Of a DNA stretch of 56,467 nt, positions 37,416 to 56,467 are shown piece after piece (positions within the stretch are counted from its first letter, which is position 1; each line of letters begins with the position of its first letter). A program made the translations under genes and the position numbers. Source of the stretch: Pseudomonadota bacterium (GTDB taxonomy: Bacteria; Pseudomonadota; Gammaproteobacteria; Burkholderiales; Burkholderiaceae_C); the NCBI GenBank assembly GCA_021845505.1, contig JAJZVU010000023.1, positions 1 to 56,467 of the forward strand, given 5' to 3'. The notes under the pieces are model-generated. The model ran no database searches. It saw only the letters and a program-made list of their open reading frames with translations, and was not told the DNA's origin.

Positions 37416-37940
37416 CTACCTGGAGAACTGCTGGCCCATGCTGGCGCCGCGCGAAAGCTGGGTCAGGTAGGCGACGAGGTCGATCATCTCCGGGCTGTCG
37501 TAACCCGGCGCCTTGCCGCCGATGCCGGCGCGCACGCAATGCACGATCTGCCGCTCCAGCGTGAACACCGCGTGCTTCTTCTTCTTGAACTTGGGGTACT
37601 TGGCCGCGGCGCCGATCAGGCTGGGCAGGCGTTTTCCGCCGGGGGTCATGCCCTCGGTCTTGCCGCCCGAGGTGTGGCAGGCGGCGCAGGTCATCAGGTG
37701 GTTGCTGAAGGAATTCGGCGGCACCCAGATCTGCTTGGTGCCGAAGGTGTCGTTGGCGAACACCTGCGCGCCCTGCGCGGCGGCCTCGTCGGCCGACGAT
37801 ACCTTGGCCGTCGCGGTGAACTTGCCGGCCGGCGCCGTGTCGGCCAGCGCCGGCACGCTGGCGGCCAGCGCCAGCGTGCCCACGCACAGCATGGCCAGCG
37901 TGCGCCGGGCGGGGAGGGTCGGTGGGCGAAGGCTGGGCAT
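37416..37940 (-). CDS. exported c-type cytochrome
   Basis: 174-residue periplasmic monohaem cytochrome. An AR-rich signal peptide (cleavage after ALA, about residue 33) precedes MTCAACHTSGGK (Cys85, Cys88, His89). The later part (PSLIGAAAKYPKF...HCVRAGIGGKAPGYDSPEM...LVAYLTQLSRG) resembles the SoxX/TsdA cytochrome fold, in which a Cys or Met is distal ligand; Cys in VHCVRAG is a candidate. A second CxxCH is absent. Possible role in sulfur-compound electron transfer, but no TsdA partner is seen. Confidence 0.72.
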   Translation of the reverse strand: MPSLRPPTLPARRTLAMLCVGTLALAASVPALADTAPAGKFTATAKVSSADEAAAQGAQVFANDTFGTKQIWVPPNSFSNHLMTCAACHTSGGKTEGMTPGGKRLPSLIGAAAKYPKFKKKKHAVFTLERQIVHCVRAGIGGKAPGYDSPEMIDLVAYLTQLSRGASMGQQFSR

Positions 37941-38070
37941 GGCGTGGTCTCCTCGATGTCGTGGGGCCGCGGCGGTCGGTGACACGGCGTGGCCGGCGGG
38001 GGGAAGTGCCCACAGTATCCATGGGCAGGACGGGTTTTACAATCGCCCTGAAACCGCCGGTAGCAATTGA

Positions 38071-38661: not shown

Positions 38662-40194
<1,533 letters not shown>

Positions 40195-40285: not shown

Positions 40286-41299
40286 TCAGGAGCCGCCCAC
40301 CGGGTCGCGGTAGTGCATCCGGTAGCGCATGTGGGTGGCCTGCAGCGCCTGCCGGCAGCGGTCGCAGGCGACCGTGGGCTCGAAGTCGCGGCCGCAATCG
40401 GCGTGGCGCAGGATCAGCGGCGGGCGGCCCGCCGACAGCCAGCGGTCGCCCCAGCGCAGCATCGCGATCATCGGGCCGAACAGATCCTTGCCCTTGTCGC
40501 TGAAACGGTATTCGAAGCGCTCGGGGCCGCGCTGGTAGGCCACCCGCCTGAACACCCCCTCGGCGACCAGGCGTCCCAGGCGGTCGCTGAGGATGTTGGG
40601 GGCGATTCCCAGGCGGGTCTGCAGGTCGTCGAAACGCCGCACGCCGAAAAAGCCCTCGCGGATGATCATGAAACTCCAGCGATCGCCGATGACCTGCAGC
40701 GCGCGTGCCACCGAACTCGGCCGCCTGCGCTCCAGCGCGGTCGGGTCGGCCGAACGCCGGGTCTTGCGCCGCACCGCCACGGTGCCGCTGCCGGCGCCCG
40801 GGCCGTCGCGGTACGACACCCTGTCGGGCCGGATGTCGCGCCGGCACTCCGAGCAGATCACCACCGCGCTGCAGTCCTGCCCGCAGTCCCGGTGCACCAG
40901 CTGCAGCGGCTTGCCGTCGGCGCCTGCCAGCCACTTGTCGCCGAATGCCATCAGCGCCAGCATCACCGGGTAGAGGTCGATTCCGCTGGCGGTCAGCCGG
41001 TACTCCTGTCGCGGCGGAGCCAGCGAGTACGGCACCCGTCGCAGCAGCCCCAGCGCAGTCAGCCTGCGCAGCCGGTCGGCCAGGGTGGTCCGCGGCAGCC
41101 CCAGCACCTGCTGGAAGTCGTCGAAGCGCCTGATGCCGAAATAGCACTCGCGCAGGATCATGAAGGTCCAGCCGTCGCCGATGACGTCGATGGTCCGGCC
41201 CACCGAGCAATGGCGCTCGACCGGCGCCGCGCCGTGCGCGGTCGCGCGCCGTGCCGGCCGGGCGGCCGCGGGGGCGGGGGAGGCGGGGTTCGCGGACAT
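40286..41299 (-). CDS. tandem HxlR-type regulator with two His/Cys modules
   Basis: 337 residues made of two copies of one unit. Each unit has an HxlR winged helix (residues about 30-125 and 195-290; DVIGDGWTFMILRE and QVIGDRWSFMIIRE) followed by H-x2-C-x9-C-x2-C. This is His136, Cys139, Cys149, Cys152 in the first copy and His299, Cys302, Cys312, Cys315 in the second. The identical spacing points to duplication and fusion and possibly zinc binding. Divergent across 231 bp from the Mo-hydroxylase operon, which it probably controls. Confidence 0.85.
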   Translation of the reverse strand: MSANPASPAPAAARPARRATAHGAAPVERHCSVGRTIDVIGDGWTFMILRECYFGIRRFDDFQQVLGLPRTTLADRLRRLTALGLLRRVPYSLAPPRQEYRLTASGIDLYPVMLALMAFGDKWLAGADGKPLQLVHRDCGQDCSAVVICSECRRDIRPDRVSYRDGPGAGSGTVAVRRKTRRSADPTALERRRPSSVARALQVIGDRWSFMIIREGFFGVRRFDDLQTRLGIAPNILSDRLGRLVAEGVFRRVAYQRGPERFEYRFSDKGKDLFGPMIAMLRWGDRWLSAGRPPLILRHADCGRDFEPTVACDRCRQALQATHMRYRMHYRDPVGGS

Positions 41300-41530
41300 G
41301 GTCGGGCGGGGCGCATGCCCAAGTCGGGCAGGCGCGCCGCGGCCCCAGTCTAAGCGCCCGCCGCGCTGCGCAGAAGCGCGGCCCTTGCCAGCCGGGATTC
41401 AAAGTCCAATAATGCAAGCAATAAGCCGGCAGCCGCGAATCCTGTGGCCTGTCGAACGCCGACGCAGCCGCAATCCCGGCGCGGGGCGGCTCGACGGGCC
41501 CGCGGCCGCGGCAAGCAACCAGGAGGCGCG
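41300..41530. promoter_or_regulatory. divergent promoter region of the HxlR regulator and Mo-hydroxylase operon
   Basis: 231-bp gap. A markedly AT-richer island at 41395-41435 contains two GCAATAA-like words on opposite sides of ATGCAAG (a short imperfect symmetry), a sensible place for promoters and an HxlR operator. The rest is GC-rich without clear structure. The AGGAGGCGCG ribosome site of the thioesterase ends it. Confidence 0.4.
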
Positions 41531-41968
41531 GTGACGACCAGGATGCAGCCCACGCTGCGCGGGGACTACCCGCATTTCGACGCGATGCCCACTCGCTGGG
41601 GCGACAACGACTCCTACGGCCACGTGAACAACGTGGTCTATTACGCCTTTTTCGACAGCGCGGTCAACCGTCACCTGATCCAGCATGGCGTGCTGGACAT
41701 CGCGACCAGCCCGGTGGTCGGACTCGTCGTCGAGACCCGCTGCACCTTCTTCTCGTCGATGGGTTTTCCCGACGTGGTGCATGTCGGGCTGAAGGTCGTG
41801 CACCTGGGGACGAGCAGCGTGCGCTACCAGATCGGCCTGTTCCGCAACGACGAACCACAGGCCTCGGCGGTCGGGGAATTCGTCCATGTCTACGTCGAGC
41901 GAGCGGCCAACCGCCCGGTGGCCATTCCCCAGGCTGTGCGCGAGGTGCTGGGGCCACTGGCCGCATGA
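41531..41968 (+). CDS. 4HBT-type acyl-CoA thioesterase
   Basis: 145-residue hot-dog thioesterase. The signature RWGDNDSYGHVNNVVYYAFFD carries the catalytic Asp. It hydrolyses an aryl- or acyl-CoA to the free acid. GTG 41531, preceded by AGGAGGCGCG, is clearly the start. First gene of the operon divergent from the tandem HxlR regulator; in CoA-based aromatic pathways such enzymes relieve CoA trapping or release the end product. Confidence 0.85.
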   Translation: MTTRMQPTLRGDYPHFDAMPTRWGDNDSYGHVNNVVYYAFFDSAVNRHLIQHGVLDIATSPVVGLVVETRCTFFSSMGFPDVVHVGLKVVHLGTSSVRYQIGLFRNDEPQASAVGEFVHVYVERAANRPVAIPQAVREVLGPLAA

Positions 41969-42003
41969 GGCGCGACCGATAACCCGGCGACAAGGACCAC
42001 GCG

Positions 42004-43470
42004 ATGGAAATGCTCGGTGAGGCGCGGCTGGCGGCGCCGCGCGAACAGGTCTGGATGGCCCTCAACGACCCGCAGGTGCTGCAGGCCAGCATCCCGGGCT
42101 GCGAGTCCCTGCAGGGCAGCGGCGACGACGCCTTCCAGGCCAGCGTGGTGTCGAGCATCGGCCCGATCAAGGCCCGCTTCGCCGGCAGGCTGAGCCTGTC
42201 GAACGTGCAGGCGCCGCGCTCCTACACGCTGCGCGCCGAGGGCGCGGGCGGTGCCGCCGGCTTCGCCAGAGCCGACATCGAGGTGTCGCTGGAGGCCGTC
42301 GAACCCCGCCTGACCCTGCTGCGCTACAAGGTGCAGGCGACGGTGGGCGGCAAGCTGGCGCAACTGGGCTCGCGCATGGTCGACGCCGCGGCTCGCAAGT
42401 CGGCGGAGGACTTTTTCGCCCGCTTCGGCGCCCAGGTCGCAGCGCTTGCCGGCGCGGGGCCGCAGCCCGCACCGGCGGCGCCGGACCTGCAGGCGCTGGC
42501 CGGGGCTCCGGCGGCGATCGGGGGGGCGACCGGGGGGACGGACGGGCAGGCGGCGCCGCCACCCGCGGCTGGCGCGCGCGCCGCGGCCGGACCGGTCGCG
42601 GCCTCGCCCGAGGAAGTGGCCGGGGTGCTGGCCAGCGAGCACATCCAGGTGTGGATCGCCGACCACATCGCGCTGGTCACGCTGAACCGCCCGCGCAGCC
42701 GCAATGCGATGACCCTGGCGATGTGGCGCTCGATGCCCGCGATCATGGCCGCGCTGGAGCGCAATCGCGAGGTGAGGGCGGTGCTGCTGTGCGGCGCCGG
42801 CGGCGACTTCTGCGCCGGTGCCGACATTTCCGAATTCGCCCAGGTGCGCGACGATACCGCGCAGGCGCATGCCTACGAACTCGCGGTGGACGCCTGCTGC
42901 GACGCCATCGCCGGGCTGGCCAAGCCGACCGTCGCGGTGCTGCGGGGCTACTGCCTGGGCGGCGGCGCCCACCTGGCGATGAGCTGCGACCTGCGCTTCG
43001 CCGCGGCGGACGCGGTGTTCGGCATTCCGGCGGCGCGGTTGTCGATCATCTACGGGGTCCACGGCACGCGCAGGCTGCTGGCGCTGGTCGGACTGGCCCA
43101 GGCCAAGAAGATCCTGTTCGGCGCGCAGCGCTTCGACGCCGAGGAGGCGCTGCGCATCGGTTTCGTCGACCAGGTCGCCGGCGCCGGCGCGCCAGCGCGC
43201 GGGAGCTGGTGGTCGCGCTGGCGCGGCCGCGCGGCGCCGCGCGCCGATGTGATGACGCAGGCGCGCGACTTCGCGCGCACGCTGGCCGACAACGCTCCGC
43301 TGAGCATCGCCGGCGCCAAGGCCCTGCTCAACGGCATGGCGATGGGACTGGGCGCGCTCGACGCGGGCCGCGCCGACGCGCTGATCGCCGCCGCCTCGGC
43401 CAGCGAGGACTACCGCGAGGGCCGTGCCGCGTTCGCGCAAAAGCGCGCTCCCCGCTTCCAGGGGCGCTGA
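42004..43470 (+). CDS. fusion of CoxG (SRPBCC) and crotonase-fold domains
   Basis: 488 residues. Residues 1-150 form a CoxG-like SRPBCC domain (AAPREQVWMALNDPQVLQASIPG...GRLSL...VGGKLAQLGSRMVDAAA), normally a separate membrane-linked maturation factor of Mo-hydroxylases. An Ala/Pro linker (about 150-205) joins a crotonase domain (210-475). The oxyanion-loop LGGGAHLAMSCD and FGIPAARL show His323 and Ala343 where the catalytic Glu144 and Glu164 of enoyl-CoA hydratase are expected, so ordinary hydration is unlikely. It is followed 13 bp later by the FAD subunit. Whether the crotonase half is a hydrolase, as in furoate catabolism, is inference. Confidence 0.85.
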   Translation: MEMLGEARLAAPREQVWMALNDPQVLQASIPGCESLQGSGDDAFQASVVSSIGPIKARFAGRLSLSNVQAPRSYTLRAEGAGGAAGFARADIEVSLEAVEPRLTLLRYKVQATVGGKLAQLGSRMVDAAARKSAEDFFARFGAQVAALAGAGPQPAPAAPDLQALAGAPAAIGGATGGTDGQAAPPPAAGARAAAGPVAASPEEVAGVLASEHIQVWIADHIALVTLNRPRSRNAMTLAMWRSMPAIMAALERNREVRAVLLCGAGGDFCAGADISEFAQVRDDTAQAHAYELAVDACCDAIAGLAKPTVAVLRGYCLGGGAHLAMSCDLRFAAADAVFGIPAARLSIIYGVHGTRRLLALVGLAQAKKILFGAQRFDAEEALRIGFVDQVAGAGAPARGSWWSRWRGRAAPRADVMTQARDFARTLADNAPLSIAGAKALLNGMAMGLGALDAGRADALIAAASASEDYREGRAAFAQKRAPRFQGR

Positions 43471-43483
43471 GGCCCTTGCGCAG

Positions 43484-44368
43484 ATGAAGCCGGCCGCCTT
43501 CGATTACCACTGTCCCGACTCGCTCGACGAGGCGCTGCAGATCCTGGCCGACGCAGGCGGCAGCGCCAAGGTGCTGGCCGGCGGGCAGAGCCTGCTGCCG
43601 ATGCTCAACCTGCGCATCGTGCGGCCGCGACTCGTGGTCGATATCGGTCGGCTGCTCGAACTCGACTACCTGCGTCGCGCCGCCGACGGGGGGCTGAGCA
43701 TCGGCGCGCTGACCCGCCACCGGGTGCTCGAGTCCTCGCCGCTGGTCGCCGGGGTGTTCCCGGTGGTTGCGCAGGCGATGCACCATGTCGCCCACCTGGC
43801 GATCCGCAACCGCGGAACCCTCGGCGGCAGCTTGAGCCATGCCGACCCGGCGGCCGAACTGCCGCTGCTGGCGCGCCTGCTCGACGCCACCCTGGTGGTG
43901 CGCAGCGCGGCGGCCGAGCGCCGCGTCGCCGCGCGCGACTTCTTCCTCGGCCCGCTGAGCCCGGCGCTGCAACCCGAGGAGCTGCTGGTCGCGGTGGAGG
44001 TCCCGGCGTGGGCCCACCAGGGCTGGGGCTTCGAGGAGGTCGCCCGCCGCGCCGGCGATTTCGCGCTCGCCGCCGCCGGCGTGCTGCTGCGGGTCGAGCA
44101 AGGGCGCATCGCCTGTGCGCGGGTCGCGCTCACCGGAGTCGGCGACGTGCCGCTGCGCTGCGCGGGCGCCGAGGCCCTGCTGGCCGGCCGGGCACTCGAG
44201 CAGCCGCCGCACCCGGCGCTGCTGGAGCAGGCGGCGCAGGCGGCCTGCGATGGCCTGCAGCCCCGCCAGGACCTGCAGGCCTCGGCTGCGCTGCGCCTGC
44301 ACCTGGCCGGCGTGGTGGTGCACAGGGCGCTGCGCAAGGCCTGGCAGCGCGCAACCGGAGCCGCATGA
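43484..44368 (+). CDS. Mo-hydroxylase FAD subunit (CoxM/XdhB type)
   Basis: 294 residues, the medium subunit that passes electrons from the FeS clusters to FAD. The FAD-binding segments AGGQSLLPMLNLRIVRP and the downstream RNRGTLGGSLSHADPAAELP are both intact. The stop and the 2Fe-2S subunit start overlap (ATGA), as in coxMSL-type operons. It works with the 2Fe-2S and molybdenum subunits to hydroxylate a ring or aldehyde; see the whole-operon finding. Confidence 0.9.
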   Translation: MKPAAFDYHCPDSLDEALQILADAGGSAKVLAGGQSLLPMLNLRIVRPRLVVDIGRLLELDYLRRAADGGLSIGALTRHRVLESSPLVAGVFPVVAQAMHHVAHLAIRNRGTLGGSLSHADPAAELPLLARLLDATLVVRSAAAERRVAARDFFLGPLSPALQPEELLVAVEVPAWAHQGWGFEEVARRAGDFALAAAGVLLRVEQGRIACARVALTGVGDVPLRCAGAEALLAGRALEQPPHPALLEQAAQAACDGLQPRQDLQASAALRLHLAGVVVHRALRKAWQRATGAA

Positions 44369-44901
44369 TGGATTCGCCTGCAATCGCAACGCACAAGGTG
44401 TGGATGGTGGTCAACGGCAGCGTCGAGCAGCACGAGGTCGAGCCGCGCATGCTGCTCAGCGACTTCCTGCGCCAGGTGCTGGGGCTGACCGGAACCCATG
44501 TGGGCTGCGAGCACGGGGTGTGCGGAGCCTGCACGGTGCTGGTCGACGGCGACAGCGTCAGGTCCTGCCTGATGCTGGCGGTCAGCGCCCACGGCGCCGA
44601 CATCCGCACCGTCGAGTCGATGGGCAGCGTCGACGCGCTGAGCCCGTTGCAGGAAGCCTTCCGCGAGCACCACGCGCTGCAATGCGGCTTCTGCACTCCG
44701 GGCATGCTGGCGACCTGCGCCGACGCCTTGCAGAAGTACCCTCTGCGCAGCGATGAGGAGATCCGCGACGCGCTGTCGGGCAACCTGTGCCGCTGCACCG
44801 GCTACCAGGGCATCGTCGAGGCGATGCGGGTGTGCGTGAAGTCGCGCGATGCGTTGCGCCAGGCGGCAGGCGCAGCCGCGCCGGAGGACGATCGGCCATG
44901 A
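44365..44901 (+). CDS. Mo-hydroxylase 2Fe-2S subunit (CoxS type)
   Basis: 178 residues with two [2Fe-2S] sites. The plant-ferredoxin-type site is GCEHGVCGACTVLVDG plus a fourth Cys in RSCL; the second site is CGFCTPG and CRCTGY. It conducts electrons from the molybdenum centre to the FAD subunit. Overlaps the FAD subunit by 4 bp and the downstream MBL gene by 4 bp, so expression is tightly coupled. Confidence 0.92.
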   Translation: MMDSPAIATHKVWMVVNGSVEQHEVEPRMLLSDFLRQVLGLTGTHVGCEHGVCGACTVLVDGDSVRSCLMLAVSAHGADIRTVESMGSVDALSPLQEAFREHHALQCGFCTPGMLATCADALQKYPLRSDEEIRDALSGNLCRCTGYQGIVEAMRVCVKSRDALRQAAGAAAPEDDRP

Positions 44902-45659
44902 AGATGCACCTGCTCAGCGGCGGGCGCCTGCGCATGCGCAAGAGCGTGTACCTGCCGTATGCCGAGCGCGGCGAGACCATCGATCTGCCGGTGTCGTGCG
45001 TGCTGCTGCGCCACCGCCAGGGCAACGTGTTGTTCGACACCGGATGCCACCCCGGCACCGTGCGCGACGCCGCGGCGCGCTGGGGGTCGCTGGCGCGGGC
45101 GATGGTGCCCATCGGCGCAGCCGACGAAAACGTGATCGACGGACTGGCCGCGCTGGGGCTGCAACCCCAGGACATCGACGTGGTGGTGAATTCGCATTTC
45201 CATTCCGACCACTGCGGCTGCAACGAGTTCTTCGGCCGCGCGACCCTGGTCTGCCATGCCAGGGAGATCGAGGCCGCGCAGGCGCCCGACGCGCTGCAAA
45301 AGGGCTATGTCGCCGCCGACTGGCAGCACCCGCTGCCGACCGACGCGATCGAGGCCGAGCGCGACCTGTTCGGCGACGGGCGCATCGTGCTGCTGCCGCT
45401 GCCGGGGCACACCGAGGGCACGCTGGGGGCGCTGGTCGCCCTCGAGCGCGACGGCCGCTTCCTGCTCGCGGCCGACGCGGCCGCGCTGCGCGAAGGCCTG
45501 GAGCGGGAGCTCATTCCCCGCAACACCTGGAACCCCGAGCTGGCCGCGGCGTCGCTGCAGGAGATCCGGCGCATCCAGGCTTCGGGGGCGGAGGTGCTGT
45601 TCGGCCACGACCTCCAGCAATGGCAGGGCCTGCGCAAGGGGGCGCAGGCCTATGAGTGA
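44898..45659 (+). CDS. metallo-beta-lactamase-fold hydrolase inside Mo-hydroxylase operon
   Basis: 253 residues. HFHSDHCG is the dinuclear zinc motif, with further ligands probably in PLPGHTEG and FGHDLQQW. The topology and lack of extra domains resemble N-acyl-homoserine-lactone lactonases and other lactone/thioester hydrolases. It is wedged between the 2Fe-2S and Mo subunits, overlapping one by 4 and the other by 8 bp, so it belongs to the same pathway. A ring-opening lactonase or thioester hydrolase is the natural guess. Confidence 0.85.
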   Translation: MKMHLLSGGRLRMRKSVYLPYAERGETIDLPVSCVLLRHRQGNVLFDTGCHPGTVRDAAARWGSLARAMVPIGAADENVIDGLAALGLQPQDIDVVVNSHFHSDHCGCNEFFGRATLVCHAREIEAAQAPDALQKGYVAADWQHPLPTDAIEAERDLFGDGRIVLLPLPGHTEGTLGALVALERDGRFLLAADAAALREGLERELIPRNTWNPELAAASLQEIRRIQASGAEVLFGHDLQQWQGLRKGAQAYE

Positions 45660-48075
45660 TCCCGCGCAAAGCCCGCTGGTCGAGGTGGTCGAGCAGCAGC
45701 CCGCCGGGCTGGTCGGCCAGCCGCTGCGCCGGGTCGAGGACGCGCGGCTGCTGACCGGATCGGGGCGCTACGTCGACGACCTGCCGGCCGGGAAGGCGCT
45801 GCACCTGGCGCTGCTGCGCAGCGACCAGGCGCACGCCCGCATCGTCGACGTGCGCAGCGACGCGGCGCGCGCGATGCCGGGGGTGCGCGGGGTGTTCTGC
45901 TGGCCGGACATCCGCGACGCCATCCGGCCCGCGCTGGCGACCTCGCGCATGGCCGACTACCAGCCCACGCCGATCCACGCGCTGGCCGACGGCTGCGTGC
46001 ACCATGTCGGCGAGCCCGTGGTCGCGGTGCTGGCCGACAGCCGCTACCTGGCCGAGGACGCGGTGGAAGCCATCGAGGTCGAATACCAGCCGCTGCCCGC
46101 CGCCAGCGACCCCGAGCAGGCGGCGCTGCCCGACGCGCCGCTGCTGCACCACGAACTGCGCAGCAACGTGCTGGTCGAGCGCTCGTTCGCCCGCGGCGAC
46201 GCCGACGCGGTGTTCGCCTGCGCGCCCCGCAGCGTGCGGGGGCGCTTTCGCATGCACCGCAAGGCGCCCAGCGCGATGGAGCCGCGCTGCTGCCTGGCCG
46301 AGATCGACCCCGGGCGCGACGCGCTGCGGTTGCACACCTCCAGCCAGGTTCCGGGCATCGTGCGCGACTGCCTGGCGGAACTGCTGGGGCTTCCGGGGAA
46401 CCGGCTGCAGGTCGTCGCCCCCGACGTGGGCGGAGGCTTCGGCGCCAAGACCTCGCTGTACCAGGAGGAAATGCTGGTCTGCGTTCTGGCGCGCAAGACC
46501 GGACGCGCGGTCAAGTGGACCGGTGACCGCCTCGAGGACCTGCTGTCGACCAGCCAGGCCTTCGACGAACGGATCGATGCCGCGCTGGCCTTCGACGACC
46601 AGGGCACCATCCTCGGGTTGCGCGCCGACGTGCTCGGCGATGTCGGCGCGTATTCCATCTATCCCTGGACCGCAGGCATCGAGCCGGTGCAGGTGATCAG
46701 CTTCCTGCCCGGGCCGTACCGGGTGCCGTGCTACCACGGGCGCACCCGCGCGGTGGCCACGCCGAAGGCGCCCACCGGGCCGTATCGCGGGGTCGGCCGC
46801 CCGACCTCGACCTTTGTCATGGAGCGGCTGGTCGACATGGCGGCGGCGCAACTCGGCCTCGACCCGGCCGAGATGCGCAGGCGCAACCTGGTGCAGCCGC
46901 AGGAGTTCCCGTACAAGACCCCGGTGGGAATCGTCTGGGACCGCTCGGGCTTCGGCGAGGGCCTCGAGGCGGCGCTCGAACTGTTCGGCTACCGCCAGGC
47001 GCGGCAGGCGCAGCAGCAGGCGCGGAGCGAGGGCCGCTGGGTGGGCATCGGCATCGCCAGCTACGCCGAGCTGTCGGGAATCGGTTCGCGCATCTCGGCG
47101 TCGCCCGGCATGCCGATCAACACCGGCACCGACACCTGCGTGATCCAGCTCGACTCCACCGGATCGATCACCGCCAGCTTCGGCTGCGCCTCGCATGGCC
47201 AGGGCCACGAGACCACGTTGGCGCAGGTGCTCGCCGACGAACTCGGGGTGCGCCTGGAGGACCTGCGGGTGGTCACCGGCGATTCGGCCGCGGTGCCCCA
47301 CGGCACCGGCAGCTACGCCAGCCGCACCGCGGTGATCAGCGGCGGCGCGGCGATGCTGGCGGCGCGCGAACTGCGCGAGCGCATGTTGCGCGTGGCGGCG
47401 CGGCTGCTCGGCGTGCCGGCGCAGCAACTGCACATCCGCGACGGGGTGATCGCCGACGCGCTGGGCGAGTCCGCGCTGAGCCTGCGGGAGCTGGCGCGCT
47501 CGCTGTATTCGAGCATGGGGCGCGCCGCGGCCGAGGCGCGCGAGGAGCTGTGCGTCAGCCGCACCTACGACCCGGTGGTCGGCACGACGAGCTCGGCCAC
47601 CCATGTCGCGCAGGTCGAGATCGATCCGCAGACCTACGCGGTGCGGGTGCAGCGCTATGTCGTCGCCGAGGACTGCGGCAGGGTGATCAACCCGCTGATC
47701 GTCACCGGGCAGACGCGCGGCGCGGTCGCGCAGGGGGTGGGCGCGGCGCTGCTCGAGGAAGTGGTCTACGACTCCGAGGGCCAGTTGCTCACCGCCAGCC
47801 TGGCCGACTACCTGCTGCCCTCGGCCCCCGAAGTCCCCGAACTGCAGGTGCGCCATCTCGACTCGCGCGCTCCGGGCAACCTCGGCGGCTTCCGCGGCGT
47901 CGGCGAGAGCGGCACCATCGGCGCGCCGGCGGCCATCGCCAACGCGGTGGCCGACGCCGTGTCGCACCTGGGCATCGACATCCACGAGCTGCCGGTGACT
48001 CCGGAACGCCTGTTCCGGCTGATCCGCGCGGCATCGCCATCCAGCATGGGAAAGCACGATGAAACTCGGACTTGA
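45652..48075 (+). CDS. Mo-hydroxylase large (molybdopterin) subunit, CoxL form II-like
   Basis: 807 residues, xanthine dehydrogenase/aldehyde oxidase family. VGGGFGAK binds the cofactor; the active-site loop reads PYRGVGR (residues 377-383), close to the AYRGAGR loop of form II enzymes and unlike the AYxCSFR of genuine CO dehydrogenases. The catalytic Glu is expected in GVGESG (about residue 752). It would add oxygen from water to a heteroaromatic ring or aldehyde. It overlaps the MBL gene by 8 bp and the SDR gene by 17 bp. Confidence 0.9.
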   Translation: MSDPAQSPLVEVVEQQPAGLVGQPLRRVEDARLLTGSGRYVDDLPAGKALHLALLRSDQAHARIVDVRSDAARAMPGVRGVFCWPDIRDAIRPALATSRMADYQPTPIHALADGCVHHVGEPVVAVLADSRYLAEDAVEAIEVEYQPLPAASDPEQAALPDAPLLHHELRSNVLVERSFARGDADAVFACAPRSVRGRFRMHRKAPSAMEPRCCLAEIDPGRDALRLHTSSQVPGIVRDCLAELLGLPGNRLQVVAPDVGGGFGAKTSLYQEEMLVCVLARKTGRAVKWTGDRLEDLLSTSQAFDERIDAALAFDDQGTILGLRADVLGDVGAYSIYPWTAGIEPVQVISFLPGPYRVPCYHGRTRAVATPKAPTGPYRGVGRPTSTFVMERLVDMAAAQLGLDPAEMRRRNLVQPQEFPYKTPVGIVWDRSGFGEGLEAALELFGYRQARQAQQQARSEGRWVGIGIASYAELSGIGSRISASPGMPINTGTDTCVIQLDSTGSITASFGCASHGQGHETTLAQVLADELGVRLEDLRVVTGDSAAVPHGTGSYASRTAVISGGAAMLAARELRERMLRVAARLLGVPAQQLHIRDGVIADALGESALSLRELARSLYSSMGRAAAEAREELCVSRTYDPVVGTTSSATHVAQVEIDPQTYAVRVQRYVVAEDCGRVINPLIVTGQTRGAVAQGVGAALLEEVVYDSEGQLLTASLADYLLPSAPEVPELQVRHLDSRAPGNLGGFRGVGESGTIGAPAAIANAVADAVSHLGIDIHELPVTPERLFRLIRAASPSSMGKHDETRT

Positions 48076-48811
48076 AGGAAAGGTCGCGCTGGTCACCGGC
48101 GGCGCCAGCGACATCGGCCGCGAGATCGCCCTCGGCCTGGCCGCCGAGGGTGCCGCGGTGGCCTTGAGCTACCACAGCTCGGCGCAGGCCGCGCAGCAGG
48201 TGGCCGAGCAGATCCGCGCCGGCGGCGGACGCGCGACGGCCATCGGCTGCGACATCGCTGACCTCGAGCAGGTGCGGGCGATGGTCGCTCGCGTGGCGGC
48301 CGAGTTCGGCGGCCTGCACATCCTGGTCAACAACGCAGGCCTGGTGCTGCGCAAGCGCTTCGCCGAGTCGACCCCCGAGGAGTGGCGCAGGCAGATCGAC
48401 ACCTGCCTGTACGGCACCATCCACTGCACCCATGCCGCGTTGCCGCACCTGGAGGCCAGCGCCGGCGCCGGGCGGGTGATCACCGTGGTGGGCGACTCCT
48501 CGCGCGTCGGCGAGTCGGGGCTGGCGGTCGGTGCGGCGGCGCGCGCGGCCAGCATCGCGCTGATGAAGTCGATCGCCCGCGAGACCCGCGCCGGCATGAC
48601 CGCCAACGTGCTGTCGCTGGGACTGATCGAGACCGCCCACGATCCGGCGTTCATCGCCGCCAACCGCGACAAGCTGCTCAAGCTGTATCCGCTGCGCCGC
48701 CTGGGAAGGCCCGGGGACGTGGCGCCGCTGGCGGTGCTGCTGGCCTCCGATTCCGGCGGCTGGATCACCGGCCAGGTGATCAGCGTCAGCGGCGGCTTCA
48801 GCATGGTCTGA
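48059..48811 (+). CDS. SDR-fold protein lacking catalytic Tyr and Lys
   Basis: 250 residues, Rossmann fold with TGGASDIG in the nucleotide loop and NNAG near residue 95. Where YxxxK is expected, the alignment through ALMKSIARE gives G158-AAA-R162, so both catalytic residues are changed. The start overlaps the Mo-subunit gene by 17 bp, tying it to the operon. It may bind NAD(P) or a CoA ester without ordinary dehydrogenase chemistry, or use another residue. Confidence 0.82.
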   Translation: MKLGLEGKVALVTGGASDIGREIALGLAAEGAAVALSYHSSAQAAQQVAEQIRAGGGRATAIGCDIADLEQVRAMVARVAAEFGGLHILVNNAGLVLRKRFAESTPEEWRRQIDTCLYGTIHCTHAALPHLEASAGAGRVITVVGDSSRVGESGLAVGAAARAASIALMKSIARETRAGMTANVLSLGLIETAHDPAFIAANRDKLLKLYPLRRLGRPGDVAPLAVLLASDSGGWITGQVISVSGGFSMV

Positions 48812-48877
48812 GTCAGCGCGGGAACGGGCGGCCGCGCAAGCCGGCCGCGGCGACAACAAGACAGCGAGGAGACACCG

Positions 48878-50449
48878 ATGATTCGTACCGACCTGATCGC
48901 GCCGATCGGCGAGCTCGTGCGCCGGCATGCCGCTCGGCGAGGCCACAAGCCGGCTTTCGAGGACGCCGGCGGCGCGGCGCTGAGCTACGCCGAACTCGAC
49001 GCGCGCAGCGCGGCGCTGGCCGGCCACCTGCAGGATCGCGGGCTGCGGGCCGGCGACACGGTGGCCATCCTGCTGCCCAACTGCGTCGACTGGGTGCTGG
49101 CCTGCGTGGCCATCGCCCGCGCCGGCGCGGTCAGCGTGCCGATCAGCCACGACGCGGTGGAGGCGGAGATCCGCTACCGCCTGGAGGACTCGCGCTGCGC
49201 CGCGGTCATCGTGTCGCCGCAGCACCTGCCGCTGGTGCGCAGGCTGCAGCGCGAGCTGCCGGCGCTGCGCCAGCTGCTGCTCGGCGCCGACACCGGTGTC
49301 GAGCCGGCAGCCGGCGAGCGGCCGGAGTCGCTGGCCGTGCTGGCGCGGACCCCGGCGGGTTCGGCGCCGCGCGACCCGCAGGACATCCACGCCACCGCCT
49401 TCATCGTCTACACCTCGGGGACGACCGGCCGCGCCAAGGGGGTGATGCTCAGCCAGCACAGCATGCTGTGGGTGGTCGCGGCCTGCTGGGCGCCGATCGC
49501 CGGGTTGTGCGAGTCCGACCGCGTGCTGTCGCCGCTGCCGCTGTTCCATTCCTACGCGCTGAACATCAGCGTGATGGGCATCCTGGCCACCGGGGCCAGC
49601 GAATTCCTGCTGCCCAGGTTCTCCACCCAGGAAGTGCTGGCGCGGCTGCGCGACGGCGGCTACACCCTGATGCCCGGGGTGCCGACCATGTTCCACTACC
49701 TGCTCGAGGGCGCGCGCGCCGACGGGCGCGCCCAGGCGCCGTCGATCCGCCATTTCCTGTCGGCCGGCGCGATCATGCCGGCGAGCCTGAACCGCGATTT
49801 CGAGGCGGCCTTCGGCAAGTCGCTGCTCGACGGCTACGGCATCACCGAGACCTCGACGATGGTGACCCTCAACTGGCCCGGGGCGCAGCGGGTGATGGGC
49901 TCGTGCGGGCTGCCGCTGCCCGGGCTGGCGGTGCGCATCGTCGACACCCAGGGGCGCGACGTCGCGCCGGGCGAGCAGGGCGAGCTGATCGTGCGCGGGC
50001 CCAATGTCATGCAGGGCTACCTGAACAAGCCGGCGGAGACCGCGGCAGCGCTGCTCGACGGCTGGTACCGCACCGGCGACCTGGCGCGCAGCGACGTCAA
50101 CGGCCTGCTGGCGATCACCGGGCGGCTGAAGGAGCTGATCATCCGCGGCGGGCAGAACATCGCGCCGGCCGAGGTCGAGGAGGCGGTGCTGTCGCATCCC
50201 GACGTGCTCGACTGCGCGGTGCTCGGCGTGGCGCATCCGCAGCTCGGCGAGGTGCCGGTGGCCTGCATCGTCGCCCGCGACGGCCGCGCGGTCGACGTGG
50301 AGTCGATCCGCAGCCATTGCGCGGGGCTGCTGTCGGCGTACAAGGTGCCGCACGCGGTGCATCTGGTGCCGGAGGTGCCTCGAACCGGTTCGGGCAAGAT
50401 CATGCGCTTCCGGCTGCGCGAGGCGCTGGCCGCGCAGGCGCCGGGTTGA
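48878..50449 (+). CDS. AMP-forming acyl/aryl-CoA ligase
   Basis: 523 residues of the ANL superfamily. FIVYTSGTTGRAKGVMLS is the P-loop-like motif, GYGITETSTMV the A5 motif, and GWYRTGDLARSD plus the C-terminal PRTGSGKIMRF with the catalytic Lys complete the set. It activates a carboxylic acid to its CoA thioester with ATP and would start the operon pathway. The ATG follows GCGAGGAGACACCG. The 66-bp gap after the SDR gene is the largest inside the operon core but has no terminator. Confidence 0.9.
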   Translation: MIRTDLIAPIGELVRRHAARRGHKPAFEDAGGAALSYAELDARSAALAGHLQDRGLRAGDTVAILLPNCVDWVLACVAIARAGAVSVPISHDAVEAEIRYRLEDSRCAAVIVSPQHLPLVRRLQRELPALRQLLLGADTGVEPAAGERPESLAVLARTPAGSAPRDPQDIHATAFIVYTSGTTGRAKGVMLSQHSMLWVVAACWAPIAGLCESDRVLSPLPLFHSYALNISVMGILATGASEFLLPRFSTQEVLARLRDGGYTLMPGVPTMFHYLLEGARADGRAQAPSIRHFLSAGAIMPASLNRDFEAAFGKSLLDGYGITETSTMVTLNWPGAQRVMGSCGLPLPGLAVRIVDTQGRDVAPGEQGELIVRGPNVMQGYLNKPAETAAALLDGWYRTGDLARSDVNGLLAITGRLKELIIRGGQNIAPAEVEEAVLSHPDVLDCAVLGVAHPQLGEVPVACIVARDGRAVDVESIRSHCAGLLSAYKVPHAVHLVPEVPRTGSGKIMRFRLREALAAQAPG

Positions 50450-50537
50450 GCCCGGGCGGCGCGGCCCGGGCGTATGCTGGGCGGTGCCAGCGCTTCCGGC
50501 AAGCGTGCCGGCCGCGCATCGTTCGCAGGAGACAGAC

Positions 50538-51344
50538 ATGCCCAGAGTCCAGGCCGGCAGCATCCGGATGAACTACGAGGAACAGGGCAGCGGCGAGCCG
50601 CTGATCCTCATTCCCTATCTCGCGGCCGAACAGGCCTGCTATGCGTTCCAGGTTCCGGAGTACGCGAAGCATTTCCGCTGCATCAGCGTCGACCCCCGGG
50701 GCGCGGGCGAATCCGACAAGCCCGCGGGAACCTACAGCACCGAGATGCTCGCCGACGACGTCGCCGCGCTGATGCACACTCTGGGGATCGCCAGCGCCCA
50801 CGTCTACGGCGTGTCGCTCGGCGGCGCGGTGGGAATGTGGCTGGCCGCCAGGCACCCGCAGCGCGTCAAGTCGCTTTCGCTGCACAGCACCTGGCCGCGC
50901 AGCGATGCCTACCTGAAGGCCGTGGTCGGCGGCTGGCAACTCGTCGCCAGGCAGCTCGACGACATGCCCGAGGCGGTGATCCAGGCCCTGTTCCCGTGGT
51001 GCTTCACTCCGCAGCTCTACGACTCCAGGCCGGAGTACCTGCAGGCGCTGTCCGATTTCGTTCGCGCACGCCCGCGCCAGCCGCTGGACGCCTTCCTGCG
51101 GCAGTCGGACGCGGTGATCGCCCACGATGCCCAGGCGCAGCTGGCGCGCATCCAGGCGCCGACCCAGATCACCTTCGGCCGTCACGACCAGGTCTGTTCG
51201 ACCCGCTTCGCCGAACCGTTGCGCCAGGGCATCGCGAACTCCGAGCTGCACGTGTTCGAGGACTGCTCGCACGCCGGCCTGTATGAAAACGTCGCCGCCT
51301 TCAACGAGGTCACGCTGGCCTTCCTGCGCCGGCACGCGGGCTGA
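50538..51344 (+). CDS. alpha/beta-fold hydrolase (enol-lactonase-like)
   Basis: 268 residues. GVSLGG carries the nucleophilic Ser, the acid Asp is probably in GRHDQV and the His in DCSHAGL. The closest general class is 3-oxoadipate enol-lactonase-like hydrolases. ATG 50538 follows CGCAGGAGACAGAC. Last gene of the operon, 88 bp after the CoA ligase. It could open a lactone formed after ring hydroxylation, competing with or complementing the MBL enzyme. Confidence 0.85.
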   Translation: MPRVQAGSIRMNYEEQGSGEPLILIPYLAAEQACYAFQVPEYAKHFRCISVDPRGAGESDKPAGTYSTEMLADDVAALMHTLGIASAHVYGVSLGGAVGMWLAARHPQRVKSLSLHSTWPRSDAYLKAVVGGWQLVARQLDDMPEAVIQALFPWCFTPQLYDSRPEYLQALSDFVRARPRQPLDAFLRQSDAVIAHDAQAQLARIQAPTQITFGRHDQVCSTRFAEPLRQGIANSELHVFEDCSHAGLYENVAAFNEVTLAFLRRHAG

Positions 51345-54506: not shown

Positions 54507-54737
54507 TCAGTCCTCGTCGAACAGGCTGGCCTGCGCCGCCTGCTCGAGCAGCTCGGCCGGGTCGTCGTCGACCGCGGTCGCGGCCAGGCCGCGGTAATAG
54601 CCGCGCACCCACTGGCCCAGCGGGGTCGACGGGTCCAGCATGTCGCGCCAGCGACTGTCCTGCATCCTTCCCATCAGCCGCCAGATCGCCTCCTGGAAAA
54701 GGCTTTCCTGCTCCGGTGACAGATTCGGTTTGTGCAT
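54507..54737 (-). CDS. small conserved-looking protein of unknown function
   Basis: 76 residues, acidic C-terminus (ends in SLFDED), Trp-rich, no signal peptide or recognised motif. The ATG at 54737 is preceded by an ordinary GC-rich leader. It lies upstream of the chemoreceptor gene on the same strand with a 132-bp gap, so a link is possible but not shown. Codon use looks like its neighbours, which favours a real gene. Confidence 0.55.
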   Translation of the reverse strand: MHKPNLSPEQESLFQEAIWRLMGRMQDSRWRDMLDPSTPLGQWVRGYYRGLAATAVDDDPAELLEQAAQASLFDED

Positions 54738-54890
54738 GGGGTTCGCGCCGGCGCAACGGCGTCCGGTGCCTTGCGGTCACAGTCTACGCCGCTGGCCGAC
54801 CGCCGAAGTCTCGTACAGTTGGCGCTGGGTGCAGGCGGCTCGCCGCGCTGCCGCCCAACCACCAGACACAGCCTGCCAGGGAGCCCACCG
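54738..54890. promoter_or_regulatory. divergent leader, small protein / benzoylformate decarboxylase
   Basis: 153 bp separate the two divergent starts. It must contain both promoters. I see no convincing operator; a CAGGGAG ribosome site precedes the decarboxylase ATG. Confidence 0.3.
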
Positions 54891-56467
54891 ATGCCGAGCC
54901 AGCAGGACCCGCGAGGTCCCGACGCGCCGAGCGTGCGCGACGCCGTGTACGCGCTGCTGCGGGAGCTGGGAATCGATACCGTGTTCGGCAATCCCGGGTC
55001 GACCGAACTGCCGATGTTCCGCGAATTCCCGGCCGACTGGCGCTACGTGCTGGGGCTGCAGGAATCCGTGGTGGTCGGCATGGCCGACGGTTACGCCCAG
55101 GTCACGCGCAATGCCGCGCTGGTCAACCTGCATTCGGCGGCCGGGCTGGGGCATGCGATGGGCAATGTGTTCACCGCGTTCAAGAACCAGACCCCTCTGC
55201 TCGTCACCGCCGGCCAGCAGGCGCGTTCGATGCTGCCCTTCGATCCCTACCTGCACGCGGCGCAGGCCACCGAGTTGCCGCGGCCCTATGTCAAGTGGAG
55301 TTGCGAGCCCGCGCGCGCGCAGGATGTTCCCCAGGCTCTGGCGCGCGCCTACTACACGGCGATGCAGCCGCCGCGCGGACCGGTGTTCGTGTCGATCCCG
55401 GCCGACGACTGGGATCGGCCCGCGCAGTGGCTGCCGGCGCGCCGGGTGGGGTTCGCGCTGGCGCCCGAGCCGGCGTTGCTGGCCGAGCTGGCGCGGCAGC
55501 TGCTGCAGGCGCAGCGCCCGGTGATCGTCGCCGGCAGCGGGGTGGACCGCGACGGCGCGATGGACTGGCTGGTCGAGCTGGCGCAGCGCCTCGACATCCC
55601 GGTGCACGCCGCGCCGATGAGCGCGCGCTGCGTGTTTCCAGAGGACCACCGGCTGTTCGCCGGCTTCCTGCCGGCGATGCGCGAGCGCATCGTCAGCCGG
55701 CTCGCCGGCCACGACCTGGTGCTGGTGGTCGGCGCGCCGGCCTTCACCTACCACGTCGAGGGCCAGGGTCCGTGCCTGCCCGCCGGGGCCCGGCTCTGGC
55801 AGGTGGTCGACGACCCGCAGCTCGCCGCCTGGGCGCCGCAGGGAAGCGCGCTGGTCGCGAGCATCGACCTCGCGCTGCAGGCCCTGCTGGCGACATGCGA
55901 GGGTTCGCGGCGGCCGCCGCGCGAGCAGCGCCCGCGCCCCGCGCGCGCGCCGGCGGCGCAGGCGGCGCAGGCAATGGGCACCGAATGCCTGCTGCAGGCC
56001 ATCGACGGCTGGCGTGCCGAGGACGACGTGTTCGTCGAGGAGGCGCCCGGGGCGCGCGGCCTGATCCAGCAGTGCCTGCCGATGCGTGGCGCCGGCAGCT
56101 TCTACACCATGGCCAGCGGCGGACTGGGCTGGGGCCTGCCGGCGGCGGTCGGCGTGGCGCTGGGCCTGCGCAGCCGCGGCAGCGGCGCTCGGGTGGTCGC
56201 GCTGCTCGGCGACGGCTCGAGCATGTATTCCATCCAGGGGCTGTACAGCGCGGCGCAATGGCGCCTGCCGATCACCTTCATCGTGTTCAACAACCGAGGC
56301 TACGCCGCGCTGCAGGACTTCGCCCCGGTGTTCGGCTACCCGCCCGGGGCCGTGCCGCAGGGCACGCAGCTGCCGGGCCTGGACTTCGTGCGGCTGGCGC
56401 AGGGCCAGGGCGTCGCCGCGCAGCGGGTCGACAGCCCGGATCGGCTGCCCGATGCCCTGCGCCAGGC
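54891..56467 (+). CDS. mdlC: benzoylformate decarboxylase-like ThDP enzyme (3' cut by window edge)
   Basis: 525 residues visible of about 530-550; the C-terminus is outside. The alignment to P. putida benzoylformate decarboxylase (recalled) is close throughout. The catalytic Ser37 in FGNPGSTE, Glu58 in LQESV, His81 in NLHSAAG and His288 in FTYHVEG all match, and the ThDP motif is GDGSSMYSIQG...FNN. It would decarboxylate an aryl-glyoxylate to an aldehyde, the last step of mandelate breakdown. The ATG at 54891 follows CAGGGAGCCCACCG. No mandelate dehydrogenase is visible, although a mandelate-racemase-type enolase is 47 kb away. Confidence 0.85.
   Translation, partial: MPSQQDPRGPDAPSVRDAVYALLRELGIDTVFGNPGSTELPMFREFPADWRYVLGLQESVVVGMADGYAQVTRNAALVNLHSAAGLGHAMGNVFTAFKNQTPLLVTAGQQARSMLPFDPYLHAAQATELPRPYVKWSCEPARAQDVPQALARAYYTAMQPPRGPVFVSIPADDWDRPAQWLPARRVGFALAPEPALLAELARQLLQAQRPVIVAGSGVDRDGAMDWLVELAQRLDIPVHAAPMSARCVFPEDHRLFAGFLPAMRERIVSRLAGHDLVLVVGAPAFTYHVEGQGPCLPAGARLWQVVDDPQLAAWAPQGSALVASIDLALQALLATCEGSRRPPREQRPRPARAPAAQAAQAMGTECLLQAIDGWRAEDDVFVEEAPGARGLIQQCLPMRGAGSFYTMASGGLGWGLPAAVGVALGLRSRGSGARVVALLGDGSSMYSIQGLYSAAQWRLPITFIVFNNRGYAALQDFAPVFGYPPGAVPQGTQLPGLDFVRLAQGQGVAAQRVDSPDRLPDALRQ

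Follow-up and report, generated by a model that had tools for sequence, protein, structure and literature searches.

What is a bacterium doing when it lines up a CoA ligase, a complete molybdenum (Mo) hydroxylase, a lactonase-like protein, a crotonase-fold protein and a thioesterase on one strand of its DNA? This is the question raised by a nine-gene operon at positions 41543-51344 of contig JAJZVU010000023.1 (assembly GCA_021845505.1), a stretch of 56,467 nt, here called the window, from a Pseudomonadota bacterium of the Burkholderiaceae_C. Our answer, to which we would give a probability of about 0.5, is that the operon and its relatives serve to break down a small oxygen-heteroaromatic acid in a CoA-dependent manner, as far as succinate semialdehyde. 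Judged from its sequences, the operon reads as CoA-dependent Mo-hydroxylase catabolism that is furoate-like in its first half and lies outside the Hmf furoate pathway. The earlier note on this DNA had seen in it a variant of that pathway, and of this the furoate-like logic stands in a loose sense, since the genes for CoA-thioester enzymes include all three subunits of a Mo-hydroxylase as well as hydrolases of lactonase-like kind, while membership of the furoate pathway itself does not.

The nine genes, all on the plus strand, open with a hot-dog acyl-CoA thioesterase (4HBT_2; 41543-41968; Pfam PF13279/PF03061), whose start is more plausibly the ATG at 41543 than the GTG at 41531, and a CoxG-crotonase fusion (42004-43470; Pfam COXG and ECH_1). 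The FAD subunit of the Mo-hydroxylase (43484-44368; FAD_binding_5 and CO_deh_flav_C) and its [2Fe-2S] subunit (44368-44901; Fer2_2 and Fer2) follow, and then come a lactonase-like protein of the metallo-beta-lactamase (MBL) fold, identified by NCBIfam and Protein Data Bank (PDB) matches and bearing an HxHxDH motif (44898-45659), and the molybdopterin, or catalytic, subunit of the hydroxylase (45652-48075; Ald_Xan_dh_C, MoCoBD_1 and MoCoBD_2). The last three are a protein of the short-chain dehydrogenase/reductase (SDR) fold, recognised by alignment, that lacks the Ser/Tyr/Lys triad and carries a GDSSRxGE...AAAR signature (48059-48811), an acyl/aryl-CoA ligase (48878-50449; AMP-binding and AMP-binding_C) and an alpha/beta hydrolase resembling the 3-oxoadipate enol-lactonase PcaD (50538-51344), which reaches 137.4 bits against the NCBIfam pcaD cut-off of 255.85. 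Each gene has a Pfam match above the curated cut-off and a G+C content at third codon positions of 0.86-0.95, and the nine genes of the earlier note are indeed present. With the starts chosen here, four junctions overlap, by 1, 4, 8 and 17 bp, instead of the five of 4-17 bp counted there, and the other four are gaps of 35, 13, 66 and 88 bp.

The cluster is conserved and well bounded yet sparsely spread, its relatives occurring in various bacteria of soil and roots. A scan of named genomes with the Mo subunit gave 18 loci, seven at 28-40% identity and 11 at 72-96%; the latter are a near-identical metagenome-assembled genome (L067), with all nine genes in one locus at 87-99% identity, and ten betaproteobacteria, for example Cupriavidus, Paraburkholderia, Burkholderia, Pseudorhodoferax and Ramlibacter; the culturable carriers include Cupriavidus numazuensis LMG 26411 and Paraburkholderia polaris RP-4-7. 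A tblastn search of plasmids with the same subunit matched 201 records, and among the best 60 there were 19 at 56.7-59.2% identity, the next standing at 42.9%. In an order-level sample of 300 genomes, matches above 1000 bits came from the window's own genome and from G108, a genome of the same order with one Mo locus at 63% identity, and from these alone, the next match scoring 567 bits; in a phylum sample of 398 genomes, partly overlapping the first, the two that passed E 1e-230 were the own genome and G567. Besides the window we read 20 clusters, namely L067-L077, L053 in G108 and those of eight alphaproteobacterial plasmids, drawn from the 19 records above (L012 and L019, two fetches of one plasmid, are counted once); the G567 cluster was read later. 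Genes for the FAD, FeS and Mo subunits, the MBL protein, the SDR, the ligase and the crotonase are found in 20 of the 20, the thioesterase and CoxG in 19 each (neither was seen in Bradyrhizobium elkanii, L011), an iron-type alcohol dehydrogenase (Fe-ADH) in 17 and a succinate-semialdehyde dehydrogenase (SSADH) in 14. The PcaD-like hydrolase recurs in L067 only, and thus belongs to the window and its near-twin alone among the clusters read.

That these genes keep one another's company more often than chance would allow can be seen from a control drawn from eight cluster-bearing genomes, in which 40 stretches, each surrounding some other Mo subunit, take in 41 of the 46 non-orthologous places listed. 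With lengths of 9.5-15 kb, mostly about 6 kb to each side, these stretches are shorter than most cluster loci; matches were found to the MBL protein in 1/40, the SDR in 3/40 and the ligase in 5/40, against 20/20 clusters for all three, and to the thioesterase in 0/40, Fe-ADH in 0/40 and SSADH in 2/40. A distant, actinobacterial version sits on a Rhodococcus koreensis plasmid (L016), with ligase at 50%, thioesterase at 45%, Mo subunit at 43%, SDR at 41% and crotonase at 31% identity, and with no match to MBL, CoxG, Fe-ADH or SSADH. As a separate observation, a gene of the gamma-carbonic-anhydrase fold adjoins six clusters (L068, L069, L072, L074, L076 and L077), the L074 copy being PaaY-like (213 bits against a cut-off of 319.6), and L068 also has a chorismate-lyase-like gene.

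What, then, do the individual enzymes look like? The PDB chain closest to the Mo subunit is quinoline 2-oxidoreductase (577 bits, against 438-440 bits for the best CO dehydrogenases, CODH), and in this the subunit resembles the heteroaromatic Mo-hydroxylases. Quinoline-type enzymes act on free heteroaromatics, and the cluster differs from them in conserving a CoA ligase and a thioesterase alongside the hydroxylase. Identity with 4-hydroxybenzoyl-CoA reductase was rejected, the alpha-subunit model TIGR03194 giving 410 of 994.55 bits and the structure 1rm6 274 bits. The best PDB matches of the ligase are, by name, a fatty-acyl-CoA synthase and a feruloyl-CoA synthetase, at 258 bits each.

The MBL protein is placed by its matches in the MBL-fold lactonase superfamily, as a relative of the N-acyl homoserine lactone (AHL) lactonases and of 4-pyridoxolactonase. 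Its PDB matches number 30, of which 18 are strong (E no higher than 6e-24), and 16 of these 18 are named as lactonases or AiiA-type proteins; the HxHxDH metal motif is intact in 22 of 22 aligned rows, L012 and L019 again being one plasmid. Its NCBIfam scores are 144.8 bits of 390 for the AttM type, 112 of 375 for AiiA and 128.5, likewise below the cut-off, for pyridoxolactonase; on these we rejected an equivalog of the quorum-quenching lactonases AttM and AiiA, and if the route proposed here is right, the cluster lactonase is probably catabolic rather than quorum-quenching. An obvious point of comparison is the AttKLM gamma-butyrolactone module of Agrobacterium, which we take to consist of an AttM-type lactonase, an alcohol dehydrogenase and an SSADH, with neither Mo-hydroxylase nor ligase nor crotonase. 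The likeness is that 14 of the 20 clusters hold an AttM-like MBL gene, an alcohol dehydrogenase and an SSADH together; the difference, beyond the low AttM score, is that the MBL gene is embedded among those of the Mo-hydroxylase, with the ligase and crotonase.

Since SSADH accompanies 14 and Fe-ADH 17 of the 20 clusters, we infer that the route ends in succinate semialdehyde and not in 2-oxoglutarate. The Aminobacter SSADH (L009), the one protein put through the family scan, scores 746 bits with E. coli GabD and 380 with the first alpha-ketoglutaric-semialdehyde dehydrogenase, passes TIGR01780 (731.8 against a cut-off of 646.35) and just misses the NADP-SSADH equivalog NF008415 (823.3 of 828); where aligned, the other cluster SSADHs show 70-98% identity with it. 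The genome of the window has its best SSADH (67%) and Fe-ADH (60%) on contig C5, no more than about 5 kb apart, and a second SSADH (62%) on C23. The C5 cluster (L167 in genome G000, about 18.5-23.6 kb) comprises the Fe-ADH, an alpha/beta-hydrolase-like gene, an MBL gene whose product is 32% identical to that of the window, the SSADH and an IclR-looking regulator, the hydrolase and regulator being named by eye, and its make-up resembles a lactone-to-succinate module. Another genome has a 19-kb stretch with no Mo gene (L054) that carries a crotonase at 57%, Fe-ADH at 54%, SSADH at 66% and an MFS transporter at 67%; judged by eye, it also encodes an alpha/beta hydrolase and a CoA-transferase-like protein. 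The same transporter stands beside four cluster loci, and we infer that genes of the L054 type and the clusters share a lower route to succinate semialdehyde.

Two members of the operon are decidedly odd, and here the CoxG fusion and the degenerate SDR of the earlier note have both proved real, the one by its Pfam domains and the other by residue alignment. In the fusion, CoxG occupies residues 5-145 and the crotonase fold about 212-488, and the two catalytic glutamate positions hold His323 and Ala343, with which the cluster rows agree save for Ala to Ser in L011; with both glutamates missing, we rejected an enoyl-CoA hydratase. Tyr350 aligns with Tyr140 of the E. coli methylmalonyl-CoA decarboxylase ScpB, a residue that we take to be catalytic there, and ScpB likewise has no glutamate at the second crotonase position. 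It differs from the window protein in keeping a glutamate where the latter has His323, in a His66 that the latter does not conserve and in the CoxG fusion of the latter. A retro-Claisen C-C hydrolase was also considered for the crotonase, and a structure model of the fusion (mean pLDDT 66, residues 342-353 below 50) was not used. CoxG and crotonase are fused in 12 of the 20 clusters (L067-L077 and L053), and CoxG is a separate gene in seven of the eight alphaproteobacterial ones. The passages on CoxG in PMC11962113 describe such proteins as anchoring other oxidoreductases to the membrane, and by analogy the crotonase may be held at the Mo complex through its fused CoxG domain.

The SDR is, if anything, stranger. 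In an alignment with FabG-type SDRs, the Ser, Tyr and Lys of 3sj7 correspond to Gly, Gly and Arg in the window protein; none of the 22 rows, the distant Rhodococcus L016 included, retains either the Tyr or the Lys, and the stretch GDSxRxGE is kept. In 20 of those rows Asp replaces the Rossmann glycine, which is still present in L053 and L016. The gene is nevertheless maintained in every cluster read and in G567, and its product is probably not a classical dehydrogenase; a structure model (mean pLDDT 79) was read for secondary structure alone.

How might such enzymes work together? The ligase would make an aryl-CoA thioester. Next to the oxygen of its ring the Mo-hydroxylase would introduce another, taken from water, so that an enol lactone results, and CoxG would keep enzymes at the membrane. 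Opening of this lactone would fall to the MBL lactonase, in the window perhaps also to the PcaD-like hydrolase; the glutamate-less crotonase would remove a carboxyl group or cleave the resulting dicarbonyl thioester, and the hot-dog thioesterase would free succinate semialdehyde. SSADH, encoded within the cluster in most relatives and on another contig here, would convert it to succinate. By chemical reasoning, 3-furoate is the simplest acid that would yield succinate semialdehyde by these enzyme classes and the best fit to the set, the steps being hydroxylation at C2, lactone opening to (formylmethyl)malonyl-CoA, and decarboxylation. A complete 3-furoate (3-carboxyfuran) pathway, in which the Mo enzyme hydroxylates 3-furoyl-CoA at C2, a relative of the AHL lactonases opens the ring, a CoxG-tethered crotonase decarboxylates, succinate semialdehyde is the exit and the SDR has a non-redox role, is a tentative proposal, and we would hold it at clearly less than even odds. 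No report of bacterial catabolism of 3-furoic acid, 3-furoate or furan-3-carboxylic acid surfaced in the open-licence PMC literature, incompletely surveyed, and no report of this gene combination was found there.

Several observations weigh against a route of this kind. The proposed steps make no use of the SDR. Crotonases to which no function is assigned (4olq and 4wcz) have the equivalent of Tyr350 too, and because this tyrosine is common to them and His66 is not conserved, decarboxylation is put forward weakly. The window operon itself lacks both SSADH and Fe-ADH; no SSADH was present in the stretch read for six of the 20 clusters (L067, L075, L053, L011, L022 and L013), and no Fe-ADH in that read for three (L067, L075 and L011). 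The two dehydrogenases could instead belong upstream, with precursor alcohols or aldehydes as their substrates, and the SSADH and Fe-ADH on C5 of the own genome form a small cluster of their own, with no tie to the operon. Finally, the G567 cluster (L170, 19.9 kb) keeps thioesterase, CoxG, FAD, FeS, MBL, Mo, SDR, Fe-ADH and SSADH genes, has no crotonase match and offers a ligase match of 26% at best, and hence the crotonase step is not shared by all relatives.

The alternative that survives best, possible in our view yet doubtful, is a different ring (pyrrole, pyridine, a larger furan, or a ring whose side chain is shortened first), with succinate semialdehyde or a related semialdehyde among the products. 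Such a substrate would fit the surroundings of the G567 cluster, which, in place of a crotonase and ligase of its own, has as neighbours (named by eye) a FadJ-like protein, thiolases and a different acyl-CoA ligase resembling feruloyl-CoA synthetase, and HpaB-family flavin monooxygenase genes lie beside two clusters without SSADH (L053:3105-4613 and L011:20086-20765). The quinoline enzyme, as nearest solved relative of the Mo subunit, points the same way. On the other hand, a lactonase-type MBL protein in every cluster would suit an oxygen ring better than the lactam of a nitrogen ring, and no ring-cleavage dioxygenase is annotated within the plasmid clusters read.

A true furoate-type pathway is, we think, unlikely. 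It would start from 2-furoate or thiophene-2-carboxylate, hydroxylate C5, open the lactone or thiolactone to 2-oxoglutaroyl-CoA and release 2-oxoglutarate by the thioesterase, with SSADH and Fe-ADH oxidising alcohols or aldehydes upstream. HmfABCDE of Cupriavidus basilensis HMF14 and Pseudomonas does share the enzyme classes (CoA ligase, three-subunit Mo-hydroxylase, crotonase fold) and a CoxG domain, which lies within the HmfA reading frame in three hmf-like loci (L133, L135 and L136) found among the 40 control stretches. Those loci run Mo(+CoxG)-FAD-FeS-ligase-crotonase, and L135 and L136 also have UbiD- and UbiX-like genes next door (by eye); no UbiD was found in the window's own genome, and the plasmid contexts H81, H85, H61, H60 and H68 yielded no hmf references, three of the five stretches having no annotated feature. 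The alignments with HmfA and HmfE proposed in the earlier note separate the two systems. In an 80-row quick tree, which carried a long-branch warning and no named CODH or nicotine references, 20 cluster Mo subunits including that of the window form one branch and three HmfA rows, assigned by gene context and not by comparison to the published accession (ADE20399.1 in PMC6678421), another, each with support 100; identity to HmfA is 34-36%. The tree omits L143 (match too short), L142 (set aside in advance), the cluster rows L012 and L013, whose Mo gene is truncated by the end of the stretch, G567 and the distant L079, L083 and L084, the L012 plasmid being represented by L019. The window crotonase is 27-28% identical to HmfE and lacks the two glutamates that HmfE keeps in 3/3 rows. 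Gene order differs as well, since the window has thioesterase, CoxG-crotonase, FAD, FeS, MBL, Mo, SDR, ligase and alpha/beta hydrolase where hmf has A-B-C-D-E. Membership of the Hmf pathway was rejected on the tree and the missing glutamates. Moreover, an hmf-like operon lives alongside the cluster in three (G301, G305 and G306) of the eight cluster-bearing genomes searched, and the aldehyde dehydrogenase scanned is a GabD-type SSADH.

Compared with HmfABCDE, the cluster adds the MBL lactonase, the thioesterase, the triad-less SDR and, mostly, Fe-ADH and SSADH in the relatives; it has no HmfE-type crotonase, and its end product would be succinate semialdehyde. The ring-opening role given to HmfE in the earlier note finds no echo in the passages on this protein in PMC6678421 and PMC12064950, which propose it as a 2-oxoglutaroyl-CoA thioesterase or hydrolase and leave opening of the furoate lactone unassigned or ascribe it to a separate putative hydrolase. 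A further Mo-hydroxylase locus in G306 (L122) has two UbiD-like genes, a UbiX-like and a crotonase-like gene (by eye) and an SSADH 65% identical to that of the cluster, and may encode a further route by which a ring acid reaches the same end point.

An aldehyde- or CO-oxidising enzyme of the CODH or glyceraldehyde-dehydrogenase type, loosely linked to an acyl-CoA operon, is highly improbable: among NCBIfam models the Mo subunit does score best with CODH group 5, and the two small subunits with glyceraldehyde dehydrogenase, but the scores fall far below the curated cut-offs (618.6 of 950; 603.7 of 790), form I CODH was rejected on large-subunit models at 618.6 of 950 and 502.6 of 991.15 bits, the Mo translation has PYRGVGR at the place of the form I loop, which we take to be AYXCSFR, and ligase, thioesterase and lactonase are conserved with the Mo enzyme in 19 or 20 of the 20 clusters.

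Directly upstream of the operon, and outside the coordinates 41531-51344 first assigned to it, lies a divergent gene for a tandem HxlR winged-helix regulator (40286-41299, minus strand; two Pfam HxlR stretches). Its family adjoins 15 of the 18 other cluster loci examined, and the regulator is part of the operon unit. Between it and the first gene is a candidate sigma-70-like promoter, TTGCCA-17-AATAAT (41385-41413, plus strand), a match to consensus alone, with one such match observed and 0.4 expected in shuffles. Next to the regulator is a ScpC-like succinyl-CoA:acetate CoA-transferase gene (38662-40176, minus strand; 732.6 bits, cut-off 500), present also in L067, which may or may not serve succinate from the route. 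Further off are a plasma-membrane-type proton-efflux P-type ATPase (35018-37396, plus strand; 634.1 bits against 615.5) and an adjoining cytochrome c gene (37416-37985). An Rfam scan of the window at the gathering threshold gave no match; a tRNA-Leu (CAG) call at 55473-55541 (plus strand) overlaps reading frames 54640-55524 and 54777-56258 and is possibly false, because 69 bases is short for a leucine tRNA.

Why should any of this matter? If the oxygen-heteroaromatic acid route proposed here is true, it would be a second way of breaking down furan-type acids with CoA and Mo, leading into succinate instead of 2-oxoglutarate and encoded by a compact gene set in betaproteobacteria and on rhizobial, agrobacterial and Aminobacter plasmids. 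It would also give a function to genes annotated merely as xanthine dehydrogenase family, N-acyl homoserine lactonase family and SDR family, and in the triad-less SDR and the CoxG-crotonase fusion the cluster offers concrete, testable oddities.

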